Assembly: GCF_001510655.1 (NCBI RefSeq)
Contig: NZ_LMVC01000005.1
Span: 138,411-202,410, forward strand
Source of the DNA: Fictibacillus sp. FJAT-27399
GTDB taxonomy: Bacteria; Bacillota; Bacilli; Bacillales; Fictibacillaceae
Direction of reading: 5' to 3'
Length of the DNA: 64,000 bases
Shown here: positions 8,139 to 55,389 of the stretch, piece by piece
Layout: every line of letters begins with the position of its first letter
Position numbering within the stretch: position 1 is the stretch's first letter
Program-made: the position numbers and the translations under genes
Notes under the pieces: model-generated
What the model was told of the DNA's origin: nothing
Databases searched by the model: none
Seen by the model: only the letters and a program-made list of their open reading frames with translations

Positions 8139-8256
8139 GCTAGTTTCCATAATGCCGTTTTGGCGGGTATTTCTGCTGTTTCAGCGGGTATTTTCAAATT
8201 TTGGCAGGTAAATTTCTGCTTCCGCGGGTAAGTCACTCATATCGGCGGGTAAACCG
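8139..8256 (+). repeat. Five-unit 20-21 bp tandem repeat, GCGGGTA core
   Basis: Copies of the core G-C-[GA]-G-G-T-A start at 8163, 8184, 8204, 8224 and 8245, giving spacings of 21, 20, 20 and 21 bp. Each core is preceded by T-rich sequence (TTTTG, TTTCA, TTTTG, TTCC, ATCG). The array is introduced by GCTAGTTTCCATAAT, which also introduces a second array at 12138. It lies between the glnS terminator and the kinase promoter. The intervening bases vary between units. Confidence 0.8.
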
Positions 8257-8293
8257 CATCATCGCCCAGGCAGGCCATCCAAACAATATCCAT

Positions 8294-8323
8294 TTGAAGG
8301 AAACAGACGCTTTGGCGTATAGT
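8294..8323 (+). promoter_or_regulatory. Sigma-A type promoter of the kinase/regulator operon
   Basis: TTGAAG (8294-8299) and TATAGT (8318-8323) are separated by 18 bp, 30 bp before the proposed start codon of the kinase. Confidence 0.5.
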
Positions 8324-8352
8324 AGAAACAAAGAAACAAGGAGGAATGCCGC

Positions 8353-9978
8353 CTGAAAGCCATAAAAGTTTCGCTGCAGATTAAAATACTCGGGCTCGTC
8401 CTGCTATTGGGTGCATTGCTGATCTTGTTGCTGACAGGGTATTTCAGTTATAAAGAGAGTAAACAAATTGAAGAAAATAAAGGGCGGCTGGCCCTCGAGT
8501 TATCAAAATCCATATCCTTCATGCCTACGGTTATTGATGCTTTCAAATTGAGCGATCCATCCAAAACGATACAGCCTCTCGTTGAAAAGATACGTAAACA
8601 TACTGGTGCTGAATTCATTGTGGTCGGCAACACATCCGGCATCCGCTATTCACATCCCATCCCTTCAGAAATCGGAAGAAAAATGACTGGGGGCGATAAT
8701 GACAGAGCTCTTAAAGGGGAGTATTACGTTTCACAGGCAAAAGGTTCTCTCGGTCCCTCTCTCAGAGGAAAATCCCCGATCTATAACCAGCAAGGAAAGA
8801 TCATCGGCCTCGTTTCCGTAGGATTTTTGTTGGAAGACATTCATGAACAGATCATGAACAACTTCTTAAAAGTCCTTTTTGTTTCTCTCATCGCACTGCT
8901 GGTTTCTGTGATTGGGAGCTATATCCTTTCTAGAGATATCCGGCGAGATACAATGGGGCTTGAACCGTATGAGATCGCCGCACTGTATAAAGAAAAGAAC
9001 GCTGTGTATCATTCCGTTAAAGAGGGCATCTTGGCCATTGATAAAGAAGGACGGATAACGAATATGAATCAATCGGCCAAGAAGCTGCTCGATATTGAAG
9101 GATCTGTCCGGCATATGAAAGTGGACGGCCTTTTTCCTTCCGCTTATCTTTATGAGGTGTTAAAGCACGGTAATCCCCAAAGTGATAAAGAGATGTTTTG
9201 GAAAGATAAAACAGTGATCGTTAACTGTACCCCTCTCTTTCATCAAAACAAGATCAGCGGCGTGGTTGCTTCCTTCCGGGACAAAACAGAGGTGGAGCAG
9301 ATGATCAATACCCTTTCTGAAGTCAAACAGTATTCTGAAGACCTTCGTTCGCAAACCCATGAGTTTACTAATAAATTATACGTTCTGTATGGTCTCTTGC
9401 AGCTTGGTGAATATGAGCAGGCCATCAGTATGATCAAAAGCGAAACACAGGTCCTGCAATTTCAAAATTCCGTCGTCTTTAACCAAATTAAAGATACAAA
9501 AGTACAAGCGATTCTATTAGGCAAGCTGGGAAAAGCTTCTGAGAAAAAAATACAGTTTGAGATCGCTTCTGATAGTTTTCTGGAAGAACTGCCGGCACAC
9601 TTCAAGCTCTCCAGCTTAATTGTTATTCTTGGAAATTTAATTGATAACGCTTTCGAAGCGGTTTATCATGTGAAGAGCCCGAAAGTCACGCTTTTTGTTA
9701 CCGATATCGGCAGTGAAATTATTTTTGAAATTGAGGATAATGGCAAAGGAATAAACGTTAAAGAAATCCCGCTTCTCTTCAATCGGGGCTACACTTCTAA
9801 AGACGGAGATGAACCAAGAGGATATGGCTTATCAAATGCGGACGAAGCTGTACGGGATATGAATGGAATAATTGAAGTGCAAAGTAATCCAGGCACTGGT
9901 ACTGTATTTACGGTGTATCTTCCTAAGAATGATAAGGGAGCTGATTCATATGATCAAAGCAGCCATAGCCGAAGATGA
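8353..9978 (+). CDS. CitA/DcuS-family sensor histidine kinase (citrate/dicarboxylate sensing)
   Basis: Membrane sensor of 541 residues. The N-terminal helix (about 10-30) and a second helix (about 168-190) enclose an extracellular PAS-like ligand domain, followed by a cytoplasmic PAS domain, a Spo0B-type dimerisation region with QTHEFTNKL (phospho-accepting His336), and an HATPase domain with NLIDNAFEA and GYGLSNADEAV. The best start is CTG at 8353: it has AAGGAGG at 8338-8344, 8 nt upstream, and yields the family-typical LKAIKVSLQIKILGL start. The alternative TTG at 8407 has no binding site and would cut into the first helix. It overlaps the regulator gene by 29 bp and, judged from the next gene, probably senses citrate or a related acid. 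Confidence 0.88.
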   Translation: MKAIKVSLQIKILGLVLLLGALLILLLTGYFSYKESKQIEENKGRLALELSKSISFMPTVIDAFKLSDPSKTIQPLVEKIRKHTGAEFIVVGNTSGIRYSHPIPSEIGRKMTGGDNDRALKGEYYVSQAKGSLGPSLRGKSPIYNQQGKIIGLVSVGFLLEDIHEQIMNNFLKVLFVSLIALLVSVIGSYILSRDIRRDTMGLEPYEIAALYKEKNAVYHSVKEGILAIDKEGRITNMNQSAKKLLDIEGSVRHMKVDGLFPSAYLYEVLKHGNPQSDKEMFWKDKTVIVNCTPLFHQNKISGVVASFRDKTEVEQMINTLSEVKQYSEDLRSQTHEFTNKLYVLYGLLQLGEYEQAISMIKSETQVLQFQNSVVFNQIKDTKVQAILLGKLGKASEKKIQFEIASDSFLEELPAHFKLSSLIVILGNLIDNAFEAVYHVKSPKVTLFVTDIGSEIIFEIEDNGKGINVKEIPLLFNRGYTSKDGDEPRGYGLSNADEAVRDMNGIIEVQSNPGTGTVFTVYLPKNDKGADSYDQSSHSRR

Positions 9979-10627
9979 TTTTCGAATAGCCGATATACAT
10001 GAAAAGTTTTTGAAGAAATTCAATGAGATTGAGGTGGTCGGAAAGGCATTGACCGGAGAACAGACGCTGCAATTGCTGAAAACAACGGAACCCGACCTGC
10101 TTCTTCTTGATGTGTATCTGCCTGATATGCTGGGCTCTGAGCTCCTCCCTCTCATCCGTGAGCACTTTCCTAAACTGAGTATTATCATGATTACAGCCGC
10201 GACGGACAAGGAGTTCCTTGAGAAAGCCCTGGGATATGGCGCGGAGAATTATTTAATCAAACCCGTGAGCCGGGAACGATTTGATGAGATCATCCAGTCA
10301 TTTATTAAAAAGCATGCTCTCCTTTCTTCCAGCGAACAAGTGAATCAAAACCTGATTGATTTGATTTTTGATAAGAGGAAACTTGAGCCATACAAAAAAG
10401 GAACCACCTTCCCAAAAGGAATCGATGAGATCACACTGGGCAAAGTGAAGGCCGTCCTTCAGGCAAAAAGGGACGGGCTTTCTGCAGAGGAAGTCGGAAA
10501 CGAGATTGGAGCTTCAAGAATTACTGCCCGACGGTATCTCGAGTACCTCTCCTCCATAAACGAATCCAAAGCCGAAGTTGTCTACGGTATTGTCGGCCGC
10601 CCCGAAAAGAAATATTATCCCCTGTAG
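9950..10627 (+). CDS. CitT/DctR-family response regulator
   Basis: Response regulator of 225 residues. The receiver domain carries the acidic pocket EDD (8-10), phospho-acceptor Asp54 in LLLLDVYLPD, the conserved Thr in IMITA and Lys in LIKPV. The C-terminal domain (about 150-225) contains the helix-turn-helix LSAEEVGNEIGASRITARRYLEYL found in CitT/DctR/MalR regulators. The ATG at 9950 is chosen because of AAGGGAG just upstream and because the product then begins MIKAAIAEDD. It sits directly after its kinase and before the citrate transporter, which it most likely activates. Confidence 0.9.
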   Translation: MIKAAIAEDDFRIADIHEKFLKKFNEIEVVGKALTGEQTLQLLKTTEPDLLLLDVYLPDMLGSELLPLIREHFPKLSIIMITAATDKEFLEKALGYGAENYLIKPVSRERFDEIIQSFIKKHALLSSSEQVNQNLIDLIFDKRKLEPYKKGTTFPKGIDEITLGKVKAVLQAKRDGLSAEEVGNEIGASRITARRYLEYLSSINESKAEVVYGIVGRPEKKYYPL

Positions 10628-10660
10628 GAGGATGGCGAAATCGCCGTCCTCTTTTAGTTT
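10628..10660 (+). terminator. Terminator after the response regulator gene
   Basis: GAGGATGGCGA and TCGCCGTCCTC pair (one mismatch) directly after the stop codon, followed by TTTT. The tail is short, so some read-through into the transporter gene is possible. Confidence 0.6.
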
Positions 10661-10713
10661 TCTCATGAACTTTATGTACAAAATTAATTTAAAGTACTTT
10701 AATAACTTTATTT

Positions 10714-10727
10714 TGAAAACGTTTTCA
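10714..10727. promoter_or_regulatory. cre box (CcpA catabolite repression site)
   Basis: TGAAAACGTTTTCA is a perfect palindrome and a full match to the cre consensus TGWAANCGNTNWCA. It lies 52 bp before the transporter start codon. CcpA repression of citrate uptake when sugars are present is established for B. subtilis citM, so repression here is a close analogy. Confidence 0.85.
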
Positions 10728-10778
10728 TTTCAGAATATTTCGTTTACACTCAACTTACTTACAAAAGGGGTGAAGACG

Positions 10779-12077
10779 ATGCTCGCATTATTAGGTTTTT
10801 TAATGATACTTACATTCATGGTTTTAATTATGACTAAACGCCTGACCGCCATGATCGCCTTGATGGTTGTCCCTGTAGTTTTCGCCTTGATTGGCGGATT
10901 CGGCAAAGATATCGGACCGATGGCGCTAGAGGGCATAAAAAGTGTAGCGCCTACAGGAATCATGATCCTGTTCGCCATTCTCTTCTTCGGCATTATGATT
11001 GATGCCGGTGTGTTTGATCCCATTATCTCAAGCATTCTGAAAGTTGTAAAAGGAGATCCTGTAAAGATCGCCATCGGAACAGCAGTACTGGCTTTGTTAA
11101 TTTCGTTAGATGGTGACGGCACGACGACCTACATGATCACCATCTCAGCAATGCTTCCATTGTACAAAAGAATTGGCATGAGGCCTCTTGTTTTGGCCGG
11201 TATTGCCGTATCTGCCTCCGGTGTGATGAACCTCCTTCCATGGGGCGGTCCTACTGCCAGAGCGATGACAGCGCTGCACCTCGGGATGTCTGATATCTTT
11301 ACGCCTGTAATTCCATCCATGATCGGCGGCGTAGTGTTCGTCCTGTTCATGGCCTTTATTCTCGGAAAAAAGGAACGCAGCCGTGTAGGTGTTCTTGAGA
11401 TTGATTATAAAACAATGGCGATGCAGGCCGCTGCTGTTGATGCTGATGCTGTCGGTTTAAAGCGTCCAAAGCTCATCGTAGTGAACTATCTGCTAACGAT
11501 CCTGCTTCTTGTTGCATTGATCAAGGAACTTTTGCCAACAACTGTTTTATTTATGATTGGCTTTGCTATTGCCATTACGATGAATTATCCAAAACTGCGT
11601 GACCAGAAAGAAAGAATCGCCAACTATGCTGATAACGCCTTATCTGTCGTCACGATGGTTTTTGCCGCAGGTATTTTCACAGGAATTCTTTCAGGTACAA
11701 AAATGGTAGATGCTATGGCCAACACAATGATCACACATGTCCCTGATGCATTGGGTTCACACTTTGCGCTCATTACAGCCATCATCTCTGCACCGTTTAC
11801 CTTTTTCATGTCCAATGATGCCTTTTATTACGGCGTCCTGCCTTTGCTTGCCAAAGCAGCTGCTGGATACGGCATTGATCCAGCCATGATCGGACGCGCT
11901 TCCCTTTTAGGATTGCCGGTCCATCTATTAAGTCCATTGGTCCCTTCTACTTATCTATTAGTCGGCATGGTGGGCGAAGACTTCGGAGACTTGCAGCGAG
12001 GCTTCCTGAAATGGGCCTGTGGTGCAACCGCGGTAATGATTCTCGTAGCTCTCGTCTTAACGATCATTCCGTTTTGA
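10779..12077 (+). CDS. citM: CitMHS family citrate transporter
   Basis: Secondary transporter for citrate complexed with a divalent metal, in symport with protons. The 432-residue product has about 11-12 membrane segments. Family features include LLISLDGDGTTTYMI in the first half and FFMSNDAFYYGVLPLL in the second, plus the C-terminal HLLSPLVPSTYLLVGM motif. The frame is open further upstream, but the ATG at 10779 has AAAAGGGGTG in place and gives the family-typical N-terminus. It is controlled by the upstream cre box and probably by the adjacent two-component system. Whether the metal is Mg (CitM-like) or Ca (CitH-like) cannot be said. Confidence 0.92.
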   Translation: MLALLGFLMILTFMVLIMTKRLTAMIALMVVPVVFALIGGFGKDIGPMALEGIKSVAPTGIMILFAILFFGIMIDAGVFDPIISSILKVVKGDPVKIAIGTAVLALLISLDGDGTTTYMITISAMLPLYKRIGMRPLVLAGIAVSASGVMNLLPWGGPTARAMTALHLGMSDIFTPVIPSMIGGVVFVLFMAFILGKKERSRVGVLEIDYKTMAMQAAAVDADAVGLKRPKLIVVNYLLTILLLVALIKELLPTTVLFMIGFAIAITMNYPKLRDQKERIANYADNALSVVTMVFAAGIFTGILSGTKMVDAMANTMITHVPDALGSHFALITAIISAPFTFFMSNDAFYYGVLPLLAKAAAGYGIDPAMIGRASLLGLPVHLLSPLVPSTYLLVGMVGEDFGDLQRGFLKWACGATAVMILVALVLTIIPF

Positions 12078-12085
12078 GTTTAAAA

Positions 12086-12122
12086 AGAAAGGAAGGCAGC
12101 GTGCCTTTCCTTTCTTTTTTTT
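12086..12122 (+). terminator. Terminator of the citrate transporter gene
   Basis: GAAAGGAAGGCA pairs with TGCCTTTCCTTTC (one bulge), followed by a long T run, 9 bp after the stop. Confidence 0.8.
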
Positions 12123-12137
12123 GCTTATGATAGTGTG

Positions 12138-12255
12138 CTAGTTTCCATAATATCGTTTTGGCGGGTATTTCTTCTGTTTCGGAGGGTATTTTTGGATTTT
12201 GGCAGGTAAATCCTCTGTTTTGGCGGGTAAATGTTTCATTTCGGAGGGTAAATCT
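12138..12255 (+). repeat. Five-unit 20-21 bp tandem repeat, GCGGGTA core (second copy)
   Basis: Cores start at 12161, 12182, 12202, 12223 and 12244: spacings 21, 20, 21, 21 bp. The array aligns almost without gaps to 8139-8256, including the lead-in GCTAGTTTCCATAAT, the order of units and parts of the spacers; two cores here read GAGGGTA. It lies between two convergent terminators. Confidence 0.8.
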
Positions 12256-12277
12256 ATTTACAGGGCCATACCCATAG

Positions 12278-12304
12278 AAAAAACAGCCAAAACGGCTGTT
12301 TTTT
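12278..12304 (-). terminator. Terminator of the DUF6526 gene
   Basis: ACAGCC and GGCTGT flank a short AAAAC loop with A and T runs on the two sides, so it can work on both strands. It abuts the stop codon at 12306. Confidence 0.75.
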
Positions 12305-12305
12305 C

Positions 12306-12740
12306 CTATACCCGATAGTAATCCCCGCGCCATTCATTGATCGCCTGCTTAATTTCTTTAGAACGCAAACTTTCTTCAGCTGCTCTTTGGCTCAACGCCG
12401 GCAGTTCTTGATCACTGGCAAAGCGCAAAGCGACAATCTGTCCGGTTGTCAGCCTGGAATCCATGAGCTTGCCGGTCAGTACAAAGTGCCGCAGATTCTC
12501 TTCGGCACGGATGGCCCGGTCTTGCGCCTTCAGCGGGTAGCTTCTCACAAGGGCAAATAAAATAACCAGTGACCCTGCCGCTAAAAGCACCACAAAGGCA
12601 AGAAGTACATTCTCTCCATTACTCAGCGAACGTACAAAGTAAACCAGTGCTGTTACGAGTGTTCCCAGCACGAAAAGGGACAGGACATAATGAAACAACG
12701 GATGCATCCGTGTATGGTTTTGATAGTTTTGATTTTCCAT
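12306..12740 (-). CDS. DUF6526 family membrane protein
   Basis: Small protein of 144 residues with two adjacent membrane helices (about 15-37 and 44-66) and a basic, soluble C-terminal half (KAQDRAIRAEENLRHFVLTGK). The N-terminal QNYQNHTRMHPLFHYVL segment matches the DUF6526 family as I know it; its function is unknown. TTAGGAGG precedes the ATG. It follows the ABC exporter genes by 28 bp, so it may share their transcript. Confidence 0.7.
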   Translation of the reverse strand: MENQNYQNHTRMHPLFHYVLSLFVLGTLVTALVYFVRSLSNGENVLLAFVVLLAAGSLVILFALVRSYPLKAQDRAIRAEENLRHFVLTGKLMDSRLTTGQIVALRFASDQELPALSQRAAEESLRSKEIKQAINEWRGDYYRV

Positions 12741-12768
12741 GTTATTTTCCTCCTAATTTTCGAACTTC

Positions 12769-13869
12769 TTATTCCCACTTAAACGTGAGGCTCGCTACGA
12801 TAAAGGCACCAATCAGCCAGCAGCCGAGAATCAGGGCCTCTGTTCCCAGGCTCATAAACGAAGCGCCAACATTCATCGTCTCCCTCATCGCAGTTGTTAA
12901 GTGAGCTATGGGAAGGATATGCACGATCGGCTGAAGAAATTCCGGCATATTTTTAATTGGAAAGAACACTCCGCCCAAAAACAGCATCGGAAAAGATAGG
13001 AAGCCTGCGATCGGTCCTGCACTTTCCGGTGTTTTGGCAATCCCTGCAATGATAAAGCCAATCGCCATGAACGCGAGTGTACCCAAGATGACAAAGCTCA
13101 CGAGGGTCAGCCACGATCCCCGGATTTCCACATCAAAGACAAGACGGGCAACGCCAAGAACAATGAGTGCCTGCAAGCCGTTCAGCATCAGCCGGGCGGT
13201 AATCTGTGCCGCGATAAAGGTGTGGGCTTTCAATGTCGTTCCCTGCATCCTCCGCAGGATTCCGCGTTCGCGCCATGATGCGATCTGTCCTGCTACCCCG
13301 TTCATGTTGTTGCTCATGATCATCATCGCCACGATCCCCGGGACAAGAAAGTCGATATAGCGGAGATTCAGCGTCTCTACCCCTTTTGGGTTGATGACCA
13401 CCGATGGCTTATAATCCGCCTTTTGTTTACTGATGGCATCGACCGCATTATTCACGAGCTGCTGTCCAACCTGCGAGACAGCCATGTTCGTTTCATTATA
13501 AAAAACAGGAAGCCTGAACGGCTTTTCACCCTGAGCCGCACTCTTCATCCTTGTTTCATAGCCTTTCGGGACCTGCAGTACAAGCTGGACGTCTCCTTTT
13601 TTCAGCTTGGAGAGCGCCTCTTTTTTACTCGATGATTTTTCGAGTGATACCGCTTCGTTTTTCTTCAAAAGACTTGCAAGTTGTTTAGATTGGGCAGATT
13701 GATCCTGGTCCACATATCCGATCGTGACCGACACGCCGTTTCCATTGCCGAGAAAAGAGCCGAGCATGACCATGAGGAAGATCGGAAACGCAAGCGTCCA
13801 GAACAAGACCTGGCGGTTGCGCAGGAAAATGCGTAATTGAGCTAACGTTAATTGCCAGTATGCTTTCAT
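12769..13869 (-). CDS. ABC-2 type transporter permease
   Basis: Membrane subunit of 366 residues in the ABC-2 family. One N-terminal helix (about 22-42) is followed by a large extracytoplasmic domain (to about residue 175, with FYNETN and the NLRYIDFLVPGIVAMMIM re-entry), then five helices including the GGVFFPIKNMPEFL motif typical of drug/antibiotic or lipid exporters. Its ATG overlaps the ATPase stop by 4 bp. The substrate is unknown. Confidence 0.85.
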   Translation of the reverse strand: MKAYWQLTLAQLRIFLRNRQVLFWTLAFPIFLMVMLGSFLGNGNGVSVTIGYVDQDQSAQSKQLASLLKKNEAVSLEKSSSKKEALSKLKKGDVQLVLQVPKGYETRMKSAAQGEKPFRLPVFYNETNMAVSQVGQQLVNNAVDAISKQKADYKPSVVINPKGVETLNLRYIDFLVPGIVAMMIMSNNMNGVAGQIASWRERGILRRMQGTTLKAHTFIAAQITARLMLNGLQALIVLGVARLVFDVEIRGSWLTLVSFVILGTLAFMAIGFIIAGIAKTPESAGPIAGFLSFPMLFLGGVFFPIKNMPEFLQPIVHILPIAHLTTAMRETMNVGASFMSLGTEALILGCWLIGAFIVASLTFKWE

Positions 13870-14795
13870 CCTTCTCTCAAGCTCCTTCCTGTCATATGGA
13901 TGAACACATCCTCCAAAGTGGCGGTGCGTGTCTGCAGATCGGTCAGTTTCAGATCTTTTTCAGATGCGGTCTGAATCAGGCTGGTCAGCGTCTGCTGTAG
14001 ATTATCGGTATAAAGCACTTGAACATCCTTATGGCTGCCTGTCTGCTTGACCCCTTCAATTTCTTTTAAATCCAGGACGGGTGCATCTTCTGTTAAACGG
14101 AACTCAACGGCGCTGTCCGACTGAAGATTTTTCACCAGATTCTCAGGTGTATCCAGTGCAATCAGCTGTCCCTGATCCATAATGGCAATCCGGTCACAGA
14201 GCACATGAGCTTCATCCATATAGTGCGTTGTCAGCATGACCGTCTTTCCTCTTTCCTTCAAATTCAGAATGATATCCCACAAGGTACGCCGAGCCTGCGG
14301 ATCAAGTCCTGTTGTCGGTTCATCCAGGAAAATGATCCAGGGATCGTGCACGAGTGCCAGCGCAATCGCCAGCCTCTGCTTTTGGCCGCCTGATAAGCTT
14401 TTGATCCGGCTTTTACGCTTATCGGTTAAAATCATGTCTTCGATCAGATCTGGAATGGATATATGCTTGGGATAGAAGCTGGCATACATTTTCAAAATCT
14501 CTTCAACGGTCAGCAGTTCAAACAGCGTCGTAGATTGAAGCTGTACTCCAATCACTTCCTTGACGTGTTCCAGGTGCTTCTTAATATCAAATTCACCGAT
14601 CCAGGCTGTTCCTTCATCCGCTTTTCTCAGGCCGACAAGCATTTCCAGCGTTGTCGTTTTTCCGGCTCCGTTCGGACCGAGCAGCCCGAATACTTCACCT
14701 TTATGTACTTCAAAGTCAACTCCCTTTACGGCGATAAAATCACCATAGCGTTTCACGAGATGCTCTACTTTAATAATGGGCTCCTGTGAACTCAT
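13866..14795 (-). CDS. ABC transporter ATP-binding protein (exporter type)
   Basis: Cytoplasmic ATPase partner of the adjacent ABC-2 permease. It has GPNGAGKTT, signature LSGGQKQRLAIALAL, Walker B IIFLDEPTTGLDP and H-loop TTHYMDEA, with a C-terminal accessory domain of about 90 residues as in drug/ABC-A type ATPases. GGAGG at 14802-14806 sits 6 nt before the ATG at 14795 but directly against an in-frame ATG at 14801, so 14795 is preferred (309 residues). Confidence 0.88.
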   Translation of the reverse strand: MSSQEPIIKVEHLVKRYGDFIAVKGVDFEVHKGEVFGLLGPNGAGKTTTLEMLVGLRKADEGTAWIGEFDIKKHLEHVKEVIGVQLQSTTLFELLTVEEILKMYASFYPKHISIPDLIEDMILTDKRKSRIKSLSGGQKQRLAIALALVHDPWIIFLDEPTTGLDPQARRTLWDIILNLKERGKTVMLTTHYMDEAHVLCDRIAIMDQGQLIALDTPENLVKNLQSDSAVEFRLTEDAPVLDLKEIEGVKQTGSHKDVQVLYTDNLQQTLTSLIQTASEKDLKLTDLQTRTATLEDVFIHMTGRSLREG

Positions 14796-14830
14796 TGCCA
14801 TCCTCCATCCTATAAAAAACTTTCATTCAT

Positions 14831-14869
14831 AAAAAAAAGAGCTAGATCCCTTCTATGAGATTCTAACTC
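14831..14869 (-). terminator. Terminator of the SIMPL gene
   Basis: On the minus strand GAGTTAGA pairs with TCTAGCTC (one G-U pair) and eight T residues follow. Confidence 0.7.
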
Positions 14870-14893
14870 ATTTCTTTTGAAATTTATGTTTTT

Positions 14894-15556: not shown

Positions 15557-15900
15557 ATAAGCCCCTCCCCATTGTACCGTTACATCATAGTCTATGCGGT
15601 ACAACGCAGGCTCATAACAAAGCCCCCTAAAGACAGCTCGACTTTAACCAGAGTGAAGGATCGCCCCTTTTGTTGACCAGATGTTACGAAACAACTTCAT
15701 GATCTCTCATAGTAACCAGACCCTTCCACCCTGCACCGAATACCTTTTTCTATTCCCTGTAGGAAAAAGGAGGAAATAGTTAAAACAGGAAAAATTATCT
15801 ATATGGGTGTAAAAGTTTTGTAAAAGGGATTTTTAACGAGAAGGATTAGTTTTTGTTTCACAATATGGTAAAATAAGGATATTTTTAAGGGGGAACGTAT
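15557..15900 (+). promoter_or_regulatory. Intergenic region with extended -10 promoter for the 15901 gene
   Basis: No gene is seen in the 344 bp. TGG plus TAAAAT at 15867-15874 resembles an extended -10 promoter, followed by AAGGGGG at 15887-15893, 7 nt before the GTG start. A short hairpin (CCTTTTTC at 15743, GGAAAAAGG at 15762) contains an isolated AAGGAGG with no usable start codon after it. Confidence 0.4.
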
Positions 15901-17369: not shown

Positions 17370-17387
17370 ATGATAGATTGCTGGCAG

Positions 17388-30012: not shown

Positions 30013-30182
30013 AAAAAAACCTCTCTGGAAAAAGAGAGGTTTCATCACTTATGTATAACGGATTCGTCCTCTCTTATCTCTCAAAACAGACATGCTGTTT
30101 TGCTGGAATTAGCACCAATTCCATTACGGAACGGTTGCTGGGCGTCATAGGGCCAGTCCCTCTGCCACTCTTGATAAGAGAA
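30013..30182 (-). promoter_or_regulatory. SAM-I (S-box) riboswitch with terminator
   Basis: Read on the minus strand, CTCTTATCAAGAG opens the aptamer, followed by GAGGGACTGGCCCTATGACGC, CAGCAACC, GGTGCTAATTCCAGC and the closing P1 strand GAGATAAGAG (to about 30070). These are the conserved S-box blocks. The expression platform is a terminator, AACCTCTCT/AGAGAGGTT with a T run (30013-30042); its 5' arm can pair instead with the AGAGAGG just after P1 as antiterminator. SAM would thus switch the importer off. Classification is by motif reading, not covariance search. Confidence 0.95.
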
Positions 30183-45991: not shown

Positions 45992-46002
45992 ACGCATTTT
46001 AT

Positions 46003-46797: not shown

Positions 46798-46822
46798 CGT
46801 TTATCACCTCTTCCTTATCCTG

Positions 46823-48510: not shown

Positions 48511-48526
48511 GGCTGCAGCCTCCTGT

Positions 48527-49156
48527 TCATTTATAAAAAGCTTTCTTAAACATTTCAATGTAAGCAGCTGCTTCAGCAAACACCTCGTCATAATCAACCT
48601 CAAGATCTTGGAGTTTAGCTTTGGCCAGAATTTCTTCACTGAGCCCTTCAAATGCCCACAGCATACTTTTTATGACCTTTGAGAGATCCAAGTCATCACG
48701 GAACTTCGAGGTGTCAATTCCATCAAAAAGCCAAGTGGAACTGCTGGCCGTAAAGGTTTTAATCCTGCTTTGAAAGTCGCTTCGAATTTGGTCTGACTCT
48801 TCCAGCATCGCTTTCTCAAAGAAACGAAAGATGTCAGGATAGGTATGAAGCAGCTCCATCTTAATAAGCGTCATGTCGTGAAGCCTTTTGAAAAAATCCG
48901 TTTCCTCCATGACTACCTTTTTATAAAAGTCTTCCATGACCACCTCGATACAGTGATCAAATAAAAAAAGATACAAGGTCTTTTTGTTCTTGAAATAGTG
49001 AAACAGCAGTCCTTTGGATATGCCGGCCTCCTTCACAATTTCATTGGTGGATGCATTGTCATAGCCCTTTTGCACGTAAACCTTGATGGCAGCATTTAAA
49101 ATTTTAATTTGTTTCTCATCTTCCAGATTGTAAAATTTCGAAAACACAGGCAGCAC
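48527..49156 (-). CDS. TetR/AcrR family regulator of the ABC exporter
   Basis: Regulator of 209 residues, GTG start. The HTH region is IKILNAAIKVYVQKGYDNASTNEIVKEAGISKGLLFHYFKNKKTLYLFLFDHC (about 17-68), followed by a helical ligand domain. It heads an operon with the ATPase and two permeases. Two matching inverted repeats (TTGACC-5-GGTCAA) lie just upstream, so it almost surely represses its own operon and is released by a transported compound. The ribosome site is weak (GAAAGAA). Confidence 0.9.
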   Translation of the reverse strand: MLPVFSKFYNLEDEKQIKILNAAIKVYVQKGYDNASTNEIVKEAGISKGLLFHYFKNKKTLYLFLFDHCIEVVMEDFYKKVVMEETDFFKRLHDMTLIKMELLHTYPDIFRFFEKAMLEESDQIRSDFQSRIKTFTASSSTWLFDGIDTSKFRDDLDLSKVIKSMLWAFEGLSEEILAKAKLQDLEVDYDEVFAEAAAYIEMFKKAFYK

Positions 49157-49189
49157 TTCTTTCGTAATTTATAACGTTATATAGTCGCG

Positions 49190-49206
49190 TTGACCAATTC
49201 GGTCAA
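49190..49206. promoter_or_regulatory. TetR operator 1
   Basis: TTGACCAATTCGGTCAA: 6-bp perfect inverted repeat with a 5-bp centre, 34 bp upstream of the tetR GTG. Confidence 0.75.
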
Positions 49207-49222
49207 TCACAGTATATGCGCA

Positions 49223-49239
49223 TTGACCAGTGTGGTCAA
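49223..49239. promoter_or_regulatory. TetR operator 2
   Basis: TTGACCAGTGTGGTCAA: same arms and spacing as operator 1. The centres are 33 bp apart, about three helical turns, so two dimers would bind on one DNA face. Confidence 0.75.
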
Positions 49240-49355
49240 CCACAACTTTTCGACAAAATTTAGCTGTTTGAACCTTATGGTTGGCAAGCAGTGAAATGTT
49301 TTTAAGGATAGGTATGAGTTTTGCCTGTTTTAGGGTTCTTTTTTTGCAGAAAATA

Positions 49356-49610
49356 AATGATGTTGAGTAAATAATGGTTTTCTGGCTTGTCTGAGAGGTT
49401 TGATCGGAGTAATTTTGGTTTATTTACAGATTTGGGGCTAAAATCCTGAGATATTATGGATGAAAGCCCAGTCAACTTTCTTATTATTGATAATCCTGAT
49501 TTATTATCGAAAAGCTCAATTTATTATCGAAAAACTGATTTTATTATGGAAATCCGAGTTTTTATTATCGAACCGTTTATACACGACTCTGTTCGACATG
49601 TTTTGACACA
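49356..49610 (+). repeat. Intergenic repeat: five TTATTATCGA units with 20-21 bp period
   Basis: TTATTAT[TCG]GA cores start at 49481, 49501, 49521, 49541 and 49562: spacings 20, 20, 20 and 21 bp. The 3' tail (CGACTC...TTCGACA...TTGACACATTCATTTCCC) and an upstream segment (AATGATGTTGAGTAAAT) also occur around the short copy at 39850-40052. A CA-rich stretch (49611-49682) follows. There is no gene in 49240-49682. Confidence 0.8.
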
Positions 49611-49682
49611 TTCATTTCCCACCATCCACCAAAGCCGATACACACAGCACGCACACCAGCCAGCAAGCACGCAGCACACAAC

Positions 49683-49716
49683 AAAAAACACCCATCCTTC
49701 ACTAAAAAGGATGGGC
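49683..49716 (-). terminator. Terminator of pssA
   Basis: On the minus strand CCCATCCTT and AAGGATGGG pair and are followed by GTTTTTT. Confidence 0.8.
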
Positions 49717-49726
49717 GCTCTCAACA

Positions 49727-50434
49727 TCATCTCCCGCGTTTCCACCTCGGAAGCTTCGGTTCTTTGACACGGATGAACCGGATGATGATGAACAGGATAT
49801 AGATGGCCAGTGCAACGTAGAAGAACACCGGCACTTTTTCAAACCTTGCTTTTGCTAAGAGGTAGAACATGTAGAACAAAAACAGAGTGACGATCACACC
49901 GTTTTTAGGCAGTTTGATGTTTTTAAAGCTTGGTATTTTAATCCTGCTGACCATGAGAACGGCCAGCCCGTAAAAGGCGATGATGAAGACCCCCAACGGA
50001 ATTACTTTTACAAACAGCACGAGAAAGGTAACGATCGCTCCAGCCAGTGTGATTGGGATCCCTGTAAAGTGTTTCAGCGACTCTTCCTGAGCGGTCACGT
50101 TGAAACGGGCCAAACGGTAGGCACCGAACACAGGAAAAATGCCGGACATCGCCACACCGTATATATAATGAAAGTCTGCAAAGTAGGTGTGAGCGGCCAA
50201 AAAGGCAGGTGCGACACCGAAAGAAACGACATCGGCAAGGGAATCCAGTTCCTTCCCCATCTCATTGGTTACGCCAAGAATTCTTGCCACCCTGCCGTCA
50301 ACCGCATCAAGCATGATTGCGATAAAGATCAGGATCGTGGCGTTCTTGCTGTCGCCATCTATAATATAGCCGATGGAAAAAAAGCCGCAATATAAATTTC
50401 CAAGTGTAAGCAGATTGGGTATATGCTTTTTCAT
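49727..50434 (-). CDS. pssA: CDP-diacylglycerol-serine O-phosphatidyltransferase
   Basis: Membrane enzyme of 235 residues that makes phosphatidylserine, the precursor of phosphatidylethanolamine. The CDP-alcohol phosphotransferase motif is complete: D43xxDG(46-47)xxAR(50-51)x8G60xxxD64xxxD68. N-terminal IPNLLTLGNLYCGFFSIGYII and six to eight helices fit PssA. In B. subtilis pssA is followed by ybfM-psd; here it stands alone with its own terminator. AAAGGACGTG precedes the ATG. Confidence 0.93.
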   Translation of the reverse strand: MKKHIPNLLTLGNLYCGFFSIGYIIDGDSKNATILIFIAIMLDAVDGRVARILGVTNEMGKELDSLADVVSFGVAPAFLAAHTYFADFHYIYGVAMSGIFPVFGAYRLARFNVTAQEESLKHFTGIPITLAGAIVTFLVLFVKVIPLGVFIIAFYGLAVLMVSRIKIPSFKNIKLPKNGVIVTLFLFYMFYLLAKARFEKVPVFFYVALAIYILFIIIRFIRVKEPKLPRWKRGR

Positions 50435-50537
50435 TTAGCACGTCCTTTGTATGTAAACTATACACTTTAATACTAATGCATTTTAGGAAATTTACAATTG
50501 CTTTTCCTATTTATAAAGGTGTTTTCCCAGTGTTTCT

Positions 50538-50957
50538 TCACATTTTTATTTTATTCAATAACTTGATAAACATTTCTATTTCTTCTTCTGAAAGTTCACT
50601 GAACGTTTCTTCATAGAAATCCTGCAGCACATCATCCATTTTATCCGCCAGTTCCTCTCCTTTTGACGTGATCGACAAATAAACGATTCTGCGGTCCTGC
50701 TCACTATGCTTACGTGTGACCAGACCGCGATTGATCAACTTATCGCTCGTTACGGAAATATGGCTGTTCGTCACTTGCAGCTGATCAGCGATTTCCGATA
50801 CCATCTGGTTACCTTGGCAGCGAAGAACCTTTAGTGCCGCATATTCATTCAGCGGAATAAAATCCTTTAGCAAAGGATGAAAACATGCCCGGATTTTCTT
50901 TGTTTGGTTTCTATAGTTTGTCACGAGATCCTTAACAAGAGTTTCTCTATTTTTCAT
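50538..50957 (-). CDS. MarR family transcriptional regulator
   Basis: Regulator of 139 residues with the winged HTH: NEYAALKVLRCQGNQMVSEIADQLQVTNSHISVTSDKLINRGLVTRKHSEQDRRIVYLSITSKGEEL. The DxRR wing (EQDRRIVYLSIT) is conserved. AAGGAG lies just before the ATG at 50957; the longer open frame upstream is not supported. It follows a second MarR gene in the same direction. Confidence 0.88.
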   Translation of the reverse strand: MKNRETLVKDLVTNYRNQTKKIRACFHPLLKDFIPLNEYAALKVLRCQGNQMVSEIADQLQVTNSHISVTSDKLINRGLVTRKHSEQDRRIVYLSITSKGEELADKMDDVLQDFYEETFSELSEEEIEMFIKLLNKIKM

Positions 50958-51012
50958 AACGATTCTCCTTGCTTGCAGCGCAGGAAATGATGATGCAATA
51001 GATTGGCACACA

Positions 51013-51462
51013 TCAAACTTTGGCTTTAATTCCAGCTTCTATTTTTTTTAACAATCGAATGTACTCATCTTGCTCTTCCTTTGACAGTGTTGAAAGCATC
51101 TCTGCCCAGAAGTGATTTCGCTTTTCTACAATAGCAGAAATCAGCGATTCACCCGTTTCCGATAATACGATCCAGACCACTCTCCGATCCTTCTCATCCC
51201 GCATACGATAGATCAGCTGTTCTTCCTCCAGCTGGTTTAAGAGTGTCGTTGTGGCTCCTGAAGTCATTCCCATCGTGTTCGAAATATCCACAACCATGCA
51301 TCTGCGTTTCTGAAACAGCATCTTTAATACCGCATACTTGGTAGCCGTTAAACTATACGGAAATTCCTTTATTTGATTTTCAATAAACGCTCTTCGCAAT
51401 TGAAAGAACGTATCCTTAATGTGGTCCAGCAGCTCGATCTGAGCTTGTAATTGTCGGTCCAT
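51013..51462 (-). CDS. MarR family transcriptional regulator divergent from the efflux pump
   Basis: Regulator of 149 residues. HTH and wing: TKYAVLKMLFQKRRCMVVDISNTMGMTSGATTTLLNQLEEEQLIYRMRDEKDRRVVWIVLSETGESL. AGAGGGGAT precedes the ATG. It lies head-to-head with the EmrAB-type genes across a 234-bp region with two palindromes, the usual layout for a pump repressor such as EmrR. A Cys in the recognition domain (RRCMVV) could sense oxidants, but this is only a possibility. Confidence 0.88.
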   Translation of the reverse strand: MDRQLQAQIELLDHIKDTFFQLRRAFIENQIKEFPYSLTATKYAVLKMLFQKRRCMVVDISNTMGMTSGATTTLLNQLEEEQLIYRMRDEKDRRVVWIVLSETGESLISAIVEKRNHFWAEMLSTLSKEEQDEYIRLLKKIEAGIKAKV

Positions 51463-51494
51463 GACTGATCCCCTCTGGGTTATTGCATTACATC

Positions 51495-51507
51495 ATGATA
51501 GTATCAT
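51495..51507. promoter_or_regulatory. Palindrome proximal to the marR gene
   Basis: ATGATAGTATCAT is a perfect 13-bp palindrome, 32 bp upstream of the marR start. Confidence 0.45.
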
Positions 51508-51580
51508 TAACCCAATAAAATTTAAAATTCATTTTTATTGTGCCTTTCAACCTTTTTGTGGTAAAGTGTTTATTTATAAA

Positions 51581-51600
51581 ATACCTTTATCATAAAGTAT
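51581..51600. promoter_or_regulatory. MarR-type operator candidate before the efflux genes
   Basis: ATACCTTTATCATAAAGTAT is a near-perfect AT-rich 20-bp palindrome of the size bound by MarR dimers, about 95 bp before the emrA-like start and next to a TATAAA-like stretch. Confidence 0.5.
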
Positions 51601-51696
51601 CTTTTCTAAAAAGTAAATCTTTCACAAAGGTATCACTCATTAACAGTTAGCTATGGTCTACAGTAAATAATATTAATAATTAAGGAGGGCAACTAA

Positions 51697-52335
51697 ATGT
51701 CTAGAGGTCGTCTACTCATGACCAACATCATCGCATTTCTAGTAGTAATCGTTTTAATTGCAGGAGGAGCGTATTACTATTTCCAAAACAACAACTACGT
51801 TTCGACGGACAATGCAAAGGTAACAGGTGAACTTCACAACATCACTGCTCCAACGGATGGAAAACTTTCAGATTGGAACTTGGAAGAAGGCAAGAAGGTA
51901 ACAAAGGATGATAAAATCGGAAAAATTTCCGGTGCTGAAAAATCCATGTCCATCACAACTCCTGCCGATGGAACCATCATTAAAAAACAAGCCAACAATG
52001 ACCAAATGGTGCAAGCTGGCCAAACACTGGCAAGTGAAGTCAACATGGATGAACTATACGTGATCGCCAACATTAAAGAAGATGAATTGAAAGATATCGA
52101 AGAGGGTGACCAGGTTGACGTTACTGTAGATGGTGATGATGAAACCACTCTTGACGGAAATGTGGAAAAAATCGGTTTTGCTACTAACTCTTTATTCTCT
52201 TTAATGCCTAAATCCAACGATGACGGCAACTACACAAAAGTAACGCAAACTGTACCTGTTAAAATTTCAATCACGAACTCATCTGATAAAGTATTGCCAG
52301 GTATGAACGCAGAAGTAAAAATTTCTAAAAACTAA
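51697..52335 (+). CDS. HlyD/EmrA-family efflux adaptor subunit
   Basis: Protein of 212 residues with one N-terminal membrane helix (about 9-28), then YYFQNNNYVSTDNAKVTGELHNITAPTDGKLSDWNLEEGKKVTKDDKIGKI (biotinyl-lipoyl-like half-motif) and MSITTPADGTIIKKQANNDQMVQAGQTLASEVNMDELYVIANIKEDEL (beta-barrel). It lacks a long coiled coil, as is normal for Gram-positive EmrA-like adaptors. AAGGAGGG precedes the ATG. It works with the MFS pump encoded 43 bp downstream. Confidence 0.9.
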   Translation: MSRGRLLMTNIIAFLVVIVLIAGGAYYYFQNNNYVSTDNAKVTGELHNITAPTDGKLSDWNLEEGKKVTKDDKIGKISGAEKSMSITTPADGTIIKKQANNDQMVQAGQTLASEVNMDELYVIANIKEDELKDIEEGDQVDVTVDGDDETTLDGNVEKIGFATNSLFSLMPKSNDDGNYTKVTQTVPVKISITNSSDKVLPGMNAEVKISKN

Positions 52336-52378
52336 TCCATCATTAGAACTGCACTTCCTAAGAAAGGAGGAAGAATAA

Positions 52379-54001
52379 ATGTCAAGCGAATTTCAACAGC
52401 CTCAAGGCTCACACGATATCAAAAGATACATTCCTTTATTAGTCATACTCATGATCGGGTTATTCCTTGCCATCCTGAACCAGACACTGCTGAACGTGGC
52501 TATTCCCCACTTGATCACAGAATTCGGAGTTTCTGCCAATACAGCTCAATGGTTATTGACAGGCTACATGCTGGTCAATGGTGCGCTCATTCCGCTATCG
52601 CCCTTTCTGATTGAACGGTTCGCGGTCCGCCGCCTCTTTTTGTTTGCCATGTTCTGCTTTACGCTAGGTTCATTGATCTGCGGGCTTTCAACGGGATTTC
52701 CTGTCATGCTAGTCGGGCGTTTGATCCAGGCCGTTGGCGGCGGTGTATTAGCACCTCTTGTCATGACCATCATCATCTTTATATTCCCTCCGGAAATCCG
52801 GGGTAAGGGGATGGGGATCTTTGGTCTCGCCATGATGTTTGCTCCGGCGGTCGGTCCTACGCTTTCTGGCTTTGTCGTGCAAAACTATGACTGGCATCTT
52901 CTCTTTACCGGAATGGTACCGCTGGGCGCCATCGTATTAATCTTTGCCTTTTTCAGACTGAAAGACATTCAGCCGCCGAAAAAGGTTAAGGTTGATGGTC
53001 TTTCCGTCTTTACGTCTCTTGCCGGTATGTCGCTGCTTCTATATGGATTCAGTGAAGCAGGAAATGACGGCTGGGATGATGCGGTTGTTCTTTCAACCAT
53101 GATTGCAGGGGCTGTCCTGCTCATGATTTTTACCATCAGACAGCTTCGTATTGAAAAGCCGCTGCTCGACATGCGGATTTTCAACTATGGAATCTTTTCA
53201 TTAGCAAGCGTTATTAACGTCGTTTTGACGATCAGTCTGTTTTCCGGGATGTTCTTGCTTCCGATCTATCTGCAGACGATCCGGGGATATTCACCGCTTG
53301 ATTCCGGACTGCTGTTGCTGCCAGGAGCTTTGATCATGCTGGTCATGTCACCTGTTTCAGGTACACTGTTTGATAAATTGGGGCCTCGTCCACTTGCCAT
53401 TTTCGGTATGGCGATCACAACGATAACGACGTATTTCTTTACAAGGCTGACAATGGATACCCCCTACACATTCATCGTGGTTCTCTATATGTTCCGTATG
53501 TTTGGGATGTCCTTCTTGATGATGCCGATTATGACAGCCGGCCTTAACCAGCTGCCGAAGCACTTGAGCAGCCATGGCACGTCCATGTCCAACACGCTTC
53601 GCCAAGTATCAGGCTCGATCGGTATCAGCTTGATCACGACCATCTTTACGAACCGTACAACGTTCCATATGAATGAGATGGAAGGAGCCATGAATACGGC
53701 CGATCCATTCTTTATGACTTCATTCCATGACTTTGTTCAAAAGGTAGCGGTCAGTCTTCATCTTCCTGTATCACAGGCCCAGCAGCAAGCAGTTCAAATC
53801 CTTTTCGGTAAAGCGAGCCAGCAGTCCAGCATCAACGGCATTAACGATGCCTTCATCATAGCAACCGTTATTTCCGCCATTGGTCTCGTATTGAGCTTAT
53901 TTCTCCGTGATGTCCGAAAAGACAAGGTTAGAGAAGCGGCTGCACCAGTACCTCAGAAAGAGGAAGTACTGCTGTTGCCAGCGCCAAAGAATGTATCCTA
54001 A
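52379..54001 (+). CDS. DHA2-family (EmrB/QacA type) MFS multidrug efflux transporter
   Basis: Membrane protein of 540 residues with 14 helices. Family motifs: FLAILNQTLLNVAIPHLITEFGVSANTAQWLLTGYMLVNGALIPLSPFLIERFAVRRLF (motifs D1 and A) and LVGRLIQAVGGGVLAPLVMTI (motif B), and the antiporter motif C GIFGLAMMFAPAVGPTLSGFVVQ. The hydrophilic C-terminus ends EEVLLLPAPKNVS. AAAGGAGGAAG upstream. Substrates are unknown lipophilic drugs or metabolites. Confidence 0.92.
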   Translation: MSSEFQQPQGSHDIKRYIPLLVILMIGLFLAILNQTLLNVAIPHLITEFGVSANTAQWLLTGYMLVNGALIPLSPFLIERFAVRRLFLFAMFCFTLGSLICGLSTGFPVMLVGRLIQAVGGGVLAPLVMTIIIFIFPPEIRGKGMGIFGLAMMFAPAVGPTLSGFVVQNYDWHLLFTGMVPLGAIVLIFAFFRLKDIQPPKKVKVDGLSVFTSLAGMSLLLYGFSEAGNDGWDDAVVLSTMIAGAVLLMIFTIRQLRIEKPLLDMRIFNYGIFSLASVINVVLTISLFSGMFLLPIYLQTIRGYSPLDSGLLLLPGALIMLVMSPVSGTLFDKLGPRPLAIFGMAITTITTYFFTRLTMDTPYTFIVVLYMFRMFGMSFLMMPIMTAGLNQLPKHLSSHGTSMSNTLRQVSGSIGISLITTIFTNRTTFHMNEMEGAMNTADPFFMTSFHDFVQKVAVSLHLPVSQAQQQAVQILFGKASQQSSINGINDAFIIATVISAIGLVLSLFLRDVRKDKVREAAAPVPQKEEVLLLPAPKNVS

Positions 54002-54035
54002 CACCCTACTCTATTAAAATCTGGAGGAATGTTTC

Positions 54036-54563
54036 ATGAATATATGTATTGTCTACGATAGTGAAGGCGGCCATACAAAGGCACTTGCCGAATCCATCGC
54101 AGCTGGAGCACAGCAAGTGAACGGCGCAAATGTCTATCTGCAGCATGTAGATGAAGCAGATGTTTACTCCCTTCCTAAGATGGATGCGATCATCTGGGGA
54201 TGCCCAGGACATTTCGGCACCATCAGCTCAGGGCTAAAAAGCTGGATCGACAAGCTTGGCTATCTATGGGCAGAAGGAAAACTAATCAACAAAGTGGGGG
54301 CTGTGTTCTGTACAACAGCTACAACTCACGGCGGTTTAGAAGCGACTCTTCTTAACCTCATTACTCCAATGCTTCACCAAGGTATGATCATCGCAGGACT
54401 TCCAGGTAATGTCCCGGAAAACGCCCTGTATGGATCTTACTACGGAGTGGGAATAACTTGTCCGATTGAAGGGAATGAACTCATTACCGAGGACGACCAG
54501 GCTCTTGGACGCGCATTGGGAGAGCGTGTAGCTCTTGTTGCACAGCAATTTACAGAACGGTAG
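54036..54563 (+). CDS. WrbA-like flavodoxin family protein (NAD(P)H:quinone oxidoreductase type)
   Basis: Flavodoxin-fold protein of 175 residues: [25 protein letters not shown] (FMN phosphate loop), [26 protein letters not shown] and [37 protein letters not shown]. The 'HGG.E.T' and 'GxPxx.G' segments are typical of WrbA. It probably reduces quinones by two electrons to prevent redox cycling. In one transcript with the drug pump (34 bp gap), it fits a quinone or redox-active toxin as pump inducer. Confidence 0.88.
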
Positions 54564-54574
54564 GTGATGGAAAA

Positions 54575-54979
54575 ATGATCGGCATATTACTTATTGTAGT
54601 CGCCGTGATTTTAATTGCAGTCTTAATTGTTATTAATACGAGGGCTTTTGCCGCTAAAGGCAAGGCGAATACAGCAGATGAAAACATGCAGTCTCCGGTT
54701 GCGAAAAAACCTATACAGGAGCCTGTACAAGAAGAAACAGCTGCCGCTGCCCAGGAAAATCACGAGAATATGGCTCCACCATCGCCAGCAATAGAAGAGA
54801 ACGTACCAGAGAAAGACCCGAATGCTATGAGTGACACGGAGTACCGTCATGCTCTGCAGCGGTTAAAAACACCTGCTAAGCCTGCCGCTCCTCCGGCTGA
54901 AACAACGGAAAAGCATTCAATGAAAGATAACGATTACCGCAGTGCTTTAAAATCAATGAATAAAAAACGCGATAACTAA
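54575..54979 (+). CDS. Hypothetical single-pass membrane protein with a duplicated YR-AL motif
   Basis: Protein of 134 residues that I do not recognise. An N-terminal helix (about 3-24) is followed by a Pro/Ala/Glu-rich linker and two copies of a short motif: MSDTEYRHALQRLK and MKDNDYRSALKSMNK (M-x-D-x-[ED]-YR-x-AL-x-x-[LM]), separated by a Pro-rich linker. The linker implies a flexible tail carrying two identical binding peptides. AGGTGATGG precedes the ATG. Last gene of the efflux operon, followed by a terminator. Confidence 0.75.
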   Translation: MIGILLIVVAVILIAVLIVINTRAFAAKGKANTADENMQSPVAKKPIQEPVQEETAAAAQENHENMAPPSPAIEENVPEKDPNAMSDTEYRHALQRLKTPAKPAAPPAETTEKHSMKDNDYRSALKSMNKKRDN

Positions 54980-54984
54980 CAGGG

Positions 54985-55019
54985 TAAAAGCCATAGAATG
55001 ATGACTTCTATGGCTTTTC
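54985..55019 (+). terminator. Terminator of the efflux operon
   Basis: AAAAGCCATAGAA pairs with TTCTATGGCTTTT around TGATGAC, with more T residues after. Confidence 0.85.
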
Positions 55020-55278
55020 TTTAATCCATTTTTATAGTTTATACGATAAGAGGTACTTTTTATGAAAGTGTAAGTGTTCATCTAATATTGTTTCTCCTCA
55101 CGATGAGATGGATCATGATACGATATGAAACGTGGGCGAGGGAGCGCGCCTGCCAGCTGATCTGCTGCCTGCGCTCAGGCTCTGAGCGGAACGAAGCGCA
55201 TCAGTTTTAAAAGATACTGGCTATTAACGGGTGAAAAAGCAGGAAGAGTTTGAACGTAAACTTTAAGAAAAGAATTTT

Positions 55279-55389
55279 ACTTGCGATTCGACAAGAGTTA
55301 CTTGCAAAAATACTGACTTTACTTGCAATAATCCACCATTTACTTGCGAGAAGGCCGACTTTACTTGCGAGAATCTACCATATACTTGC
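55279..55389 (+). repeat. Six-unit tandem repeat, ACTTGC core, exact 21-bp period
   Basis: ACTTGC begins at 55279, 55300, 55321, 55342, 55363 and 55384, with an exact 21-bp period throughout. The core is usually TTTACTTGC[GA]A, and the 10 bases between units vary. It lies in a gene-free region between the efflux operon terminator and the CBS remnant. The 55020-55278 stretch before it includes a GC-rich segment (55130-55205) with no gene I can support. Confidence 0.85.

Follow-up and report, generated by a model that had tools for sequence, protein, structure and literature searches.

Arrays of 20-21 bp repeats between Fictibacillus genes and their pairing with genes for NERD-domain proteins

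Four arrays in the window and their dialects

The window analysed here is a stretch of 64,000 nucleotides of Fictibacillus sp. FJAT-27399 (contig NZ_LMVC01000005.1, positions 138,411 to 202,410 of the forward strand), and our subject is a set of four intergenic arrays within it, in which a short core recurs every 20 or 21 bp and whose cores are paired with genes for NERD-domain proteins elsewhere in the genome. The initial annotation had pointed out these four arrays, and all of them read essentially as described there, some of the cores being variant. In the following, a dialect is an array type named after its core, G000 is this Fictibacillus genome (4.5 Mb), G449 a genome of the same species (4.35 Mb) and G002-G005 are relatives. 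Array 1 (8139..8254, + strand), of the GCGGGTA dialect, has a GlnRS gene (6396-8054) on one side and a sensor kinase gene (8407-9978) on the other, with five units at 8163, 8184, 8204, 8224 and 8245 (four GCGGGTA, one GCAGGTA) next to a lead beginning GCTAGTTTCCATAAT at 8139-8162; it is present in G449 and is diverged, yet of 5 units, in G002. The GlnRS has its best named matches in Fictibacillus macauensis (88%) and Bacillus species, which places the genome in the Bacillales. Array 2 (12137..12252, + strand) is of the same dialect with the same lead, has five units from 12160 (two exact GCGGGTA, two GAGGGTA, one GCAGGTA) and stands between convergent genes for a CitMHS transporter (10578-12077) and a DUF6526 protein (12306-12740). 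At its site G004 carries 4 units of a GGACAGTA/GGCCAGTA dialect, G003 a degraded form of that dialect and G005 no array. Array 3 (49480..49590, - strand) is flanked by the genes for a TetR-type protein and a CDP-alcohol phosphatidyltransferase; its five units belong to the TTATTATCGA dialect (TTCGATAATAAA on the - strand), with, from 49480, three exact TTATTATCGA cores plus TTATTATTGA and TTATTATGGA, and with a lead-like end, ACCGTTTATACACGACTC, at 49572-49589. The same site in G449 holds 3 units of TTATTCTCGA type.

Array 4 (55277..55412, - strand) consists of six exact ACTTGC cores (GCAAGTAA on the - strand), each 21 bp apart (55279-55389), and of a lead (TTTATGAAAATGAGGTGTTTT on the - strand) at about 55390-55412. 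No array is found at this site in G449, G005, G004, G003 or G002. Positions 55048-55672 are the remnant of a gene, CBS-domain-like by eye, that is apparently intact at the same place in G449, and a segment of about 450 bp with array 4 and a terminator-like hairpin substitutes for part of it; parts of this segment are 71-77% identical to another place in the genome (G000:C9:385859-386304).

Measured against shuffled sequence, the comparison proposed in the initial annotation, the periodicity is far above expectation in scans of G000 and G449. Within the window a k-mer chain scan found arrays 3 and 4 (at least 4 units) vs none in 15 third-order Markov shuffles, and a mismatch-tolerant array detector (8-mer self-match at lags 20-22, at least 4 units, score at least 5) returned these four arrays only, with 0 at that score in one shuffled 400 kb copy. 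Whole-genome pattern searches show each window core to be a dispersed family in G000: core pairs number 17 for GCGGGTA, 105 for TACTTGC and 22 for TTATTATCGA, vs 1, 3 and 0 in the reversed-pattern control. Scanning 20 stretches of G000 (400 kb, partly selected around known arrays) added two further cores, ACTGTCC and GGGCGCG, while in G449 (4.35 Mb) 60 stretches at even spacing, 1.2 Mb in all, gave 32 hits vs 1 in shuffles. Five of the 32 rows were removed before counting (4 within called genes, 1 AT-rich) and 27 were accepted as arrays; among those kept, L262 nevertheless lies within a called gene, as does a further array at L308.

The common architecture that had been proposed, a 20-21 bp period, holds for the further dialects too. 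The claim that the cores are unrelated holds only in part in this genome and stands across genera: because 20 of the 27 sampled G449 arrays have cores of TTTAC-nnn-C type on one strand (by reading), most cores in this genome are related, and across genera they are diverse, at least two core 5-mers being common to 22 of 820 pairs of NERD-linked arrays. This mostly shared scaffold had been missed, as had the pairing with NERD genes. A universal TTTAC scaffold, hinted at by a search whose pattern itself required TTTAC, was discarded, since NERD-linked arrays of other genera contradict it. Among 38 genomes of the same order or nearer, an excess of TTTAC (at least 5 matches over control, judged by eye) occurs in 8 of 29 with NERD and in 0 of 9 without.

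The dialects inspected closely have a conserved lead at one array end and stop abruptly at the other. ACTTGC arrays of G000 have 6 units in 14 of 14 cases collected with at least 5 units (two near-identical copies among them); in G449 the 14 collected comprise 11 arrays of 6 units, 2 of 5 and 1 of 7. Their odd spacers resemble odd ones and their even spacers even ones (mean identity 0.47-0.54 vs 0.35-0.41), which makes a 42 bp double unit, and the remainder of the spacer is free to vary; TGTCGAA, frequent in odd spacers of the G000 arrays, looks similar to the Spo0A box. Across 53 arrays the autocorrelation of A/T content is 0.13 at lags 9-11 (a peak read without shuffle control) and 0.24-0.43 at lags 20-21, as expected for two A/T blocks per unit on one face; the suggestion of proteins bound along one face of the DNA is compatible with the pattern. 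A repeated RNA structure was dropped: folded with RNA parameters, the 53 arrays give mean z values of -0.26 and 0.0 on the two strands, with 5 and 2 arrays below -2 (row L290:12607 and in-gene rows were omitted). Nor are the arrays a named Rfam element; at the gathering score nothing matches over them, and the sole match in the window is a SAM riboswitch elsewhere (RF00162, 95 bits, 30071-30180, - strand).

NERD-domain genes beside the arrays

Four arrays, each of a different dialect, have paralogous genes as neighbours, and both of the two neighbours that were scanned match the NERD domain (PF08378) alone in Pfam. In G449 there are seven PF08378 genes, all over the Pfam gathering cut-off, and every one of them has an array 65-217 bp upstream of its called start (one with 3 units only, and two sharing the core GGCATGTA). 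G000 has seven long-type NERD loci, one of which is a broken gene in two fragments; here too all seven have an array within 900 bp, two of these with 3 units. For comparison, one setting was used for genes and NERD loci alike (whole array within 900 bp), with a base rate from 1410 sampled genes. Arrays of at least 3 units within 900 bp upstream occur at 7 of 7 NERD genes in G449 and 7 of 7 in G000, vs 38 of 1410 sampled genes; with at least 4 units the counts are 6 of 7 and 5 of 7 vs 35 of 1410, and with at least 3 units within 300 bp they are 6 of 7 and 5 of 7 vs 17 of 1410. The core of the GCGGGTA NERD, whose gene is broken in G000, recurs in window arrays 1 and 2, and that of the ACTTGC NERD (L425) in array 4; the core of array 3 is one base from that beside NERD locus L428. 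A further locus, L426, encodes the ACTGGCGC-type NERD.

PF08378 was found in 300 of the 398 genomes of a class-wide list. We chose 40 NERD loci in 22 genomes whose reading frames span about 300-375 residues; 38 come from 21 other genomes and 2 from G000. An array stands within 900 bp, on one side or both, at 33 of the 40 (31 of 38 if G000 is set aside). In these 33 the array lies upstream in 26 and downstream in 14, with 7 on both sides, and six of the seven two-sided cases are direct repeats of one core. In most cases, here as in G000 and G449, the core is peculiar to the gene it accompanies. Among 29 analysable control NERD loci, mostly encoding shorter proteins, two have an array (one upstream and coding-like, one downstream), and for upstream arrays the difference between chosen and control loci is significant (Fisher p 7e-8). 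With duplicates removed and the two strains G000 and G449 added, 41 of 48 NERD proteins have an array. An extreme array of 55 units stands directly after the NERD gene at L397 (G095:C33). A different NERD protein of 557 residues, helicase-like by eye after its NERD part, is encoded at L430 (G000:C9:307485-307799), with no array reported nearby.

The protein alignment holds 48 full-length sequences (duplicates and lengths outside 290-375 residues left out). Ten columns are invariant in all 48, including E49, Q80, D82, E95 and K97 (L426 numbering), residues that fit a PD-(D/E)XK active site; a loose regular expression for that site fits 42 of 48, and the column count is the measure used here. 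CxxC..CxxC is present in 46 of 48. The least conserved part lies between the nuclease domain and this putative zinc ribbon (mean identity 0.25 vs 0.41 in the nuclease domain), and it is there that array specificity might be sought. The nuclease part has weak matches to PglW (PADLOC, E 3e-5 to 7e-4) and to MAD6 (NCBIfam, 26-42 bits against a cut-off of 460), while the two matches among solved structures (E 0.5-0.8) are uninformative.

Array and protein vary together. Between G000 and G449, identity is 88.7-99.1% in the five orthologous NERD pairs that keep their dialect (measured over partial lengths in two of them), and 71.8% and 59.8% in the two pairs whose dialect has switched. At these two loci DNA identity is 58-83% over array and gene, with flanks mostly at 93-99%; array and NERD gene thus differ between the strains as one block. 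Across 41 NERD proteins, those whose arrays share core 5-mers are also more alike in their C-terminal parts, a relation matched by 0 of 1000 permutations (1 of 1000 without G449).

Array sites in the second strain and along the chromosome

Conservation at the same loci, the other check proposed in the initial annotation, gave a mixed outcome. Of 26 G000 arrays compared with G449, 20 could be placed and 6 could not; 13 of the placed arrays are kept, one is shortened by 62 bp, one is a remnant, four have another dialect in G449 (L156:8946, L153:15852, L153:11133 and window array 3) and one, window array 4, is absent. The 13 kept arrays have an ungapped identity of about 90-99%, much like the remaining sequence of the same gap, and placed orthologous arrays mostly keep their spacers. 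An in-register loss of units (62 bp) is seen in L158 vs L309.

Between the two strains ACTTGC cores changed at 1 of 215 positions vs 26 of 471 in spacers (p 0.0006); a count over the 5 pairs with no more than 12 differences, of which one may not be orthologous, gave 2 of 240 vs 19 of 325 (Fisher). ACTGTCC cores changed at 1 of 63 vs 10 of 148 positions (p 0.18), and GCGGGTA cores change as fast as their spacers (7 of 142 vs 16 of 321). The GCGGGTA NERD is broken in G000 and short in G449, and it would fit if cores were needed only while their NERD protein works; the ACTTGC NERD, however, is also short in G449, and the pairs are few.

Arrays are over-represented between convergent genes, 20 of 52 lying there vs 85 of 510 gaps of at least 150 bp (p 0.0005); some orthologous arrays entered this count from both strains, and its 6 divergent cases include L290:12607. 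Of 26 arrays in tandem contexts, 19 have GTAAA on the coding strand (p 0.03). With the replication origin placed at the G449 contig start from GC skew, ACTTGC arrays gather around the origin (Kolmogorov-Smirnov (KS) p 1e-6), and by our own counts the GCAAGTA strand is the leading strand in 17 of 20 ACTTGC arrays, several of them near-identical copies, and the other strand in 10 of 13 arrays of the ACCCGC type. The GCGGGTA type shows no clear departure from an even spread (13 arrays, KS p 0.22). Near-identical ACTTGC arrays occur near the origin at about 15.7, 36, 102 and 239 kb of G449:C2, and we suspect that ribosomal RNA operons lie beside them. Around the terminus the 18 G449 stretches at 1.606-2.867 Mb hold 0 arrays vs 27 in the other 42, with limits set post hoc, and eleven further stretches at 1.57-2.76 Mb gave no detector hit outside genes. 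Counter to such a gap are a GCGGGTA-type array at 1.572 Mb, which lies within one of these eleven stretches and was overlooked by the detector, and a G000 array at a site where G449 keeps a remnant, at about 2.39 Mb.

Possible function and relation to known systems

These observations suggest that the arrays are probably recognition arrays of multi-copy, paralogue-specific NERD-domain proteins of about 310-350 residues. Several dialects have numerous additional arrays dispersed over the genome. Each NERD protein would read one 20-21 bp unit with its divergent linker, zinc ribbon and tail, and 4-6 protomers would be aligned along one face of the DNA. An array upstream of a NERD gene would serve as a site for that same protein, possibly as its operator. 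Nicks or cuts at arrays might then lead to recombination that copies, homogenises or converts arrays and cassettes, in the manner of repetitive extragenic palindromic (REP) sequences and their RAYT enzymes. In its fuller form, which we put forward tentatively and short of calling it probable, NERD nucleases would be a new class of array-directed enzymes, each with its own array code on a 20-21 bp ruler and each using cut and repair to spread or convert its own cassette as well as arrays, with the result that dialects differ between strains at the same addresses. If this were true, a barely studied protein family would drive a fast-recoding intergenic layer, one dialect of which is gathered around the origin.

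Several results weigh against the assignment of the arrays to NERD proteins. Binding, cutting and spread are what we infer. The 40 chosen loci were picked from the matches listed and partly from genomes with arrays already known, and 7 of them lack an array that reaches the threshold. One core, GGCATGTA, is common to L350 and L353, and the NERD-side arrays of L353, L424, L429 and L395 have 3 units. In neither strain does a NERD gene have precisely the core of the ACTGTCC dialect or of the exact TTATTATCGA dialect, and for the G449 dialects beside L348 and L350 no second clear array occurs in the sampled part of the chromosome (pattern-sorted cores). The ACTTGC NERD of G449 has 252 residues only, yet there are many arrays of this dialect. 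The few sites that were compared show no target duplication or clean insertion scar. The constraint on cores counts as weak evidence: without one rearranged pair the ACTTGC counts become 2 of 168 core positions vs 18 of 382 in spacers (p 0.05).

NERD proteins could also be DNA-binding regulators or chromosome organisers whose nuclease fold does not cut, the arrays being operators or insulators after genes. The enrichment between convergent genes (20 of 52 vs 85 of 510), the position upstream of NERD genes and the gathering of ACTTGC arrays around the origin (KS p 1e-6, GCAAGTA leading in 17 of 20) all agree with such a role, but a protein that only binds would have no need of active-site residues invariant in 48 of 48 sequences, and array presence and dialect at a site vary within the species; we consider it unlikely. 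Less likely still is a conflict or defence module, in which chromosomal arrays hold or restrain a nuclease that acts on invading or array-free DNA while dialects diversify against cross-talk. Allelic blocks with strongly diverged NERD genes would be expected of it, and the PglW and MAD6 matches point the same way, although they are weak and confined to the nuclease part. A 2025 preprint treats NERD as a PD-(D/E)XK subtype, its nucleases belonging to a rare proposed defence system (PMC12458937, which refers to the naming of the domain in 2004), and in a paper of 2023 NERD appears in a figure legend as one of the putative CRISPR auxiliary genes (PMC10910872). Against this, no plasmid or phage record resembles array 4, for which reason a phage or plasmid origin was dropped, and no viral contig encodes a NERD relative, including two viral stretches that match the peptide pattern.

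That the array RNA is the functional form, for example as a repeated protein-binding transcript at gene ends, appears very improbable: the coding-strand bias of GTAAA (19 of 26 tandem contexts, p 0.03) speaks for it, whereas the 53 arrays fold no better than shuffles on either strand and have no Rfam match, 20 of 52 arrays lie between convergent genes, and the ACCCGC type has the other strand leading in 10 of 13. We give least credence to functionless tandem repeats kept by slippage or unit exchange. The in-register loss of 62 bp (L158 vs L309) and the not wholly fixed unit number of ACTTGC arrays in G449 (11 with 6, 2 with 5, 1 with 7) are what slippage would leave, but spacers within an array are mostly unlike while the cores are constant, the 14 ACTTGC arrays collected in G000 with at least 5 units all have 6, with odd and even spacers of two kinds, and the linkage to NERD genes is unaccounted for.

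In organisation the REPtron comes nearest among known systems; in it the enzyme gene is flanked by its own repeats; likewise, a NERD gene here stands beside its own dispersed repeat, dispersal not being seen for every dialect. REPtrons are described as multi-copy short DNA repeats that are linked to an enzyme gene, repeat and enzyme having co-evolved (PMC8266576). Their enzyme is a relative of the HuH single-strand transposases and their repeats are palindromes, whereas here the protein is a putative PD-(D/E)XK-type NERD protein and the units are direct repeats without a fold every 20-21 bp. Since an HuH (Y1) transposase was not found beside arrays (the two scanned array-side paralogues match NERD PF08378 only) and no hairpin-forming palindrome was found either (RNA-parameter fold z about 0, both strands, 53 arrays), we do not class the arrays as REPtrons. 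ParR of pSK41 binds 20-bp repeats, and in ParR-parC systems, as summarised in one account, direct repeats lie upstream of the gene and specificity differs between families (PMC9426499). The likeness is that of direct repeats upstream of a gene and bound by its protein, a binding that here we only infer; ParR-parC is a plasmid centromere, unlike these chromosomal, scattered, many-copy arrays next to a nuclease-like gene, and among ten proteins scanned with Pfam, eight of them window genes, none matched ParM or the ribbon-helix-helix fold of ParR. With CRISPR the arrays share a repeated motif, differing spacers and a nuclease-like gene nearby; they differ in having a core of 6-9 bp, mostly few units, many array copies per genome and spacers largely kept between strains.

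The partner genes are themselves NERD proteins by Pfam score. In 2022 the NERD domain was said, to the knowledge of the authors concerned, to be previously unstudied in any bacterial protein; conserved residues of the NERD region matter for SmdA in Staphylococcus aureus, and the passages of that paper at hand name no DNA partner (PMC9040797). Titles, abstracts and passages among the matches listed in open-licence literature contain no description of such arrays or of a link between NERD and repeats. If the arrays are indeed recognition arrays of NERD proteins, they would provide a predicted DNA target that is directly testable, the pairs of paralogue and core would form a natural set for learning how such proteins recognise DNA, and a large group of Bacillales intergenic repeats for which we found no description would be accounted for. 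That array and gene differ as a block between strains of one species suggests that selection or conflict is ongoing.

Two minor observations concern repeats outside these genomes. Five viral contigs (L342-L346) each contain one two-unit ACTTGC pattern, the number expected by chance not having been estimated. Three Bacillus genomes (stretches L078, L080 and L083), in whose stretches tblastn with the NERD set found no NERD gene, carry arrays with other cores: AGGAGT, inside a called reading frame, in Bacillus sp. FJAT-14578, TCTATCGA in Bacillus timonensis and TTAATT in Bacillus sp. EB01.

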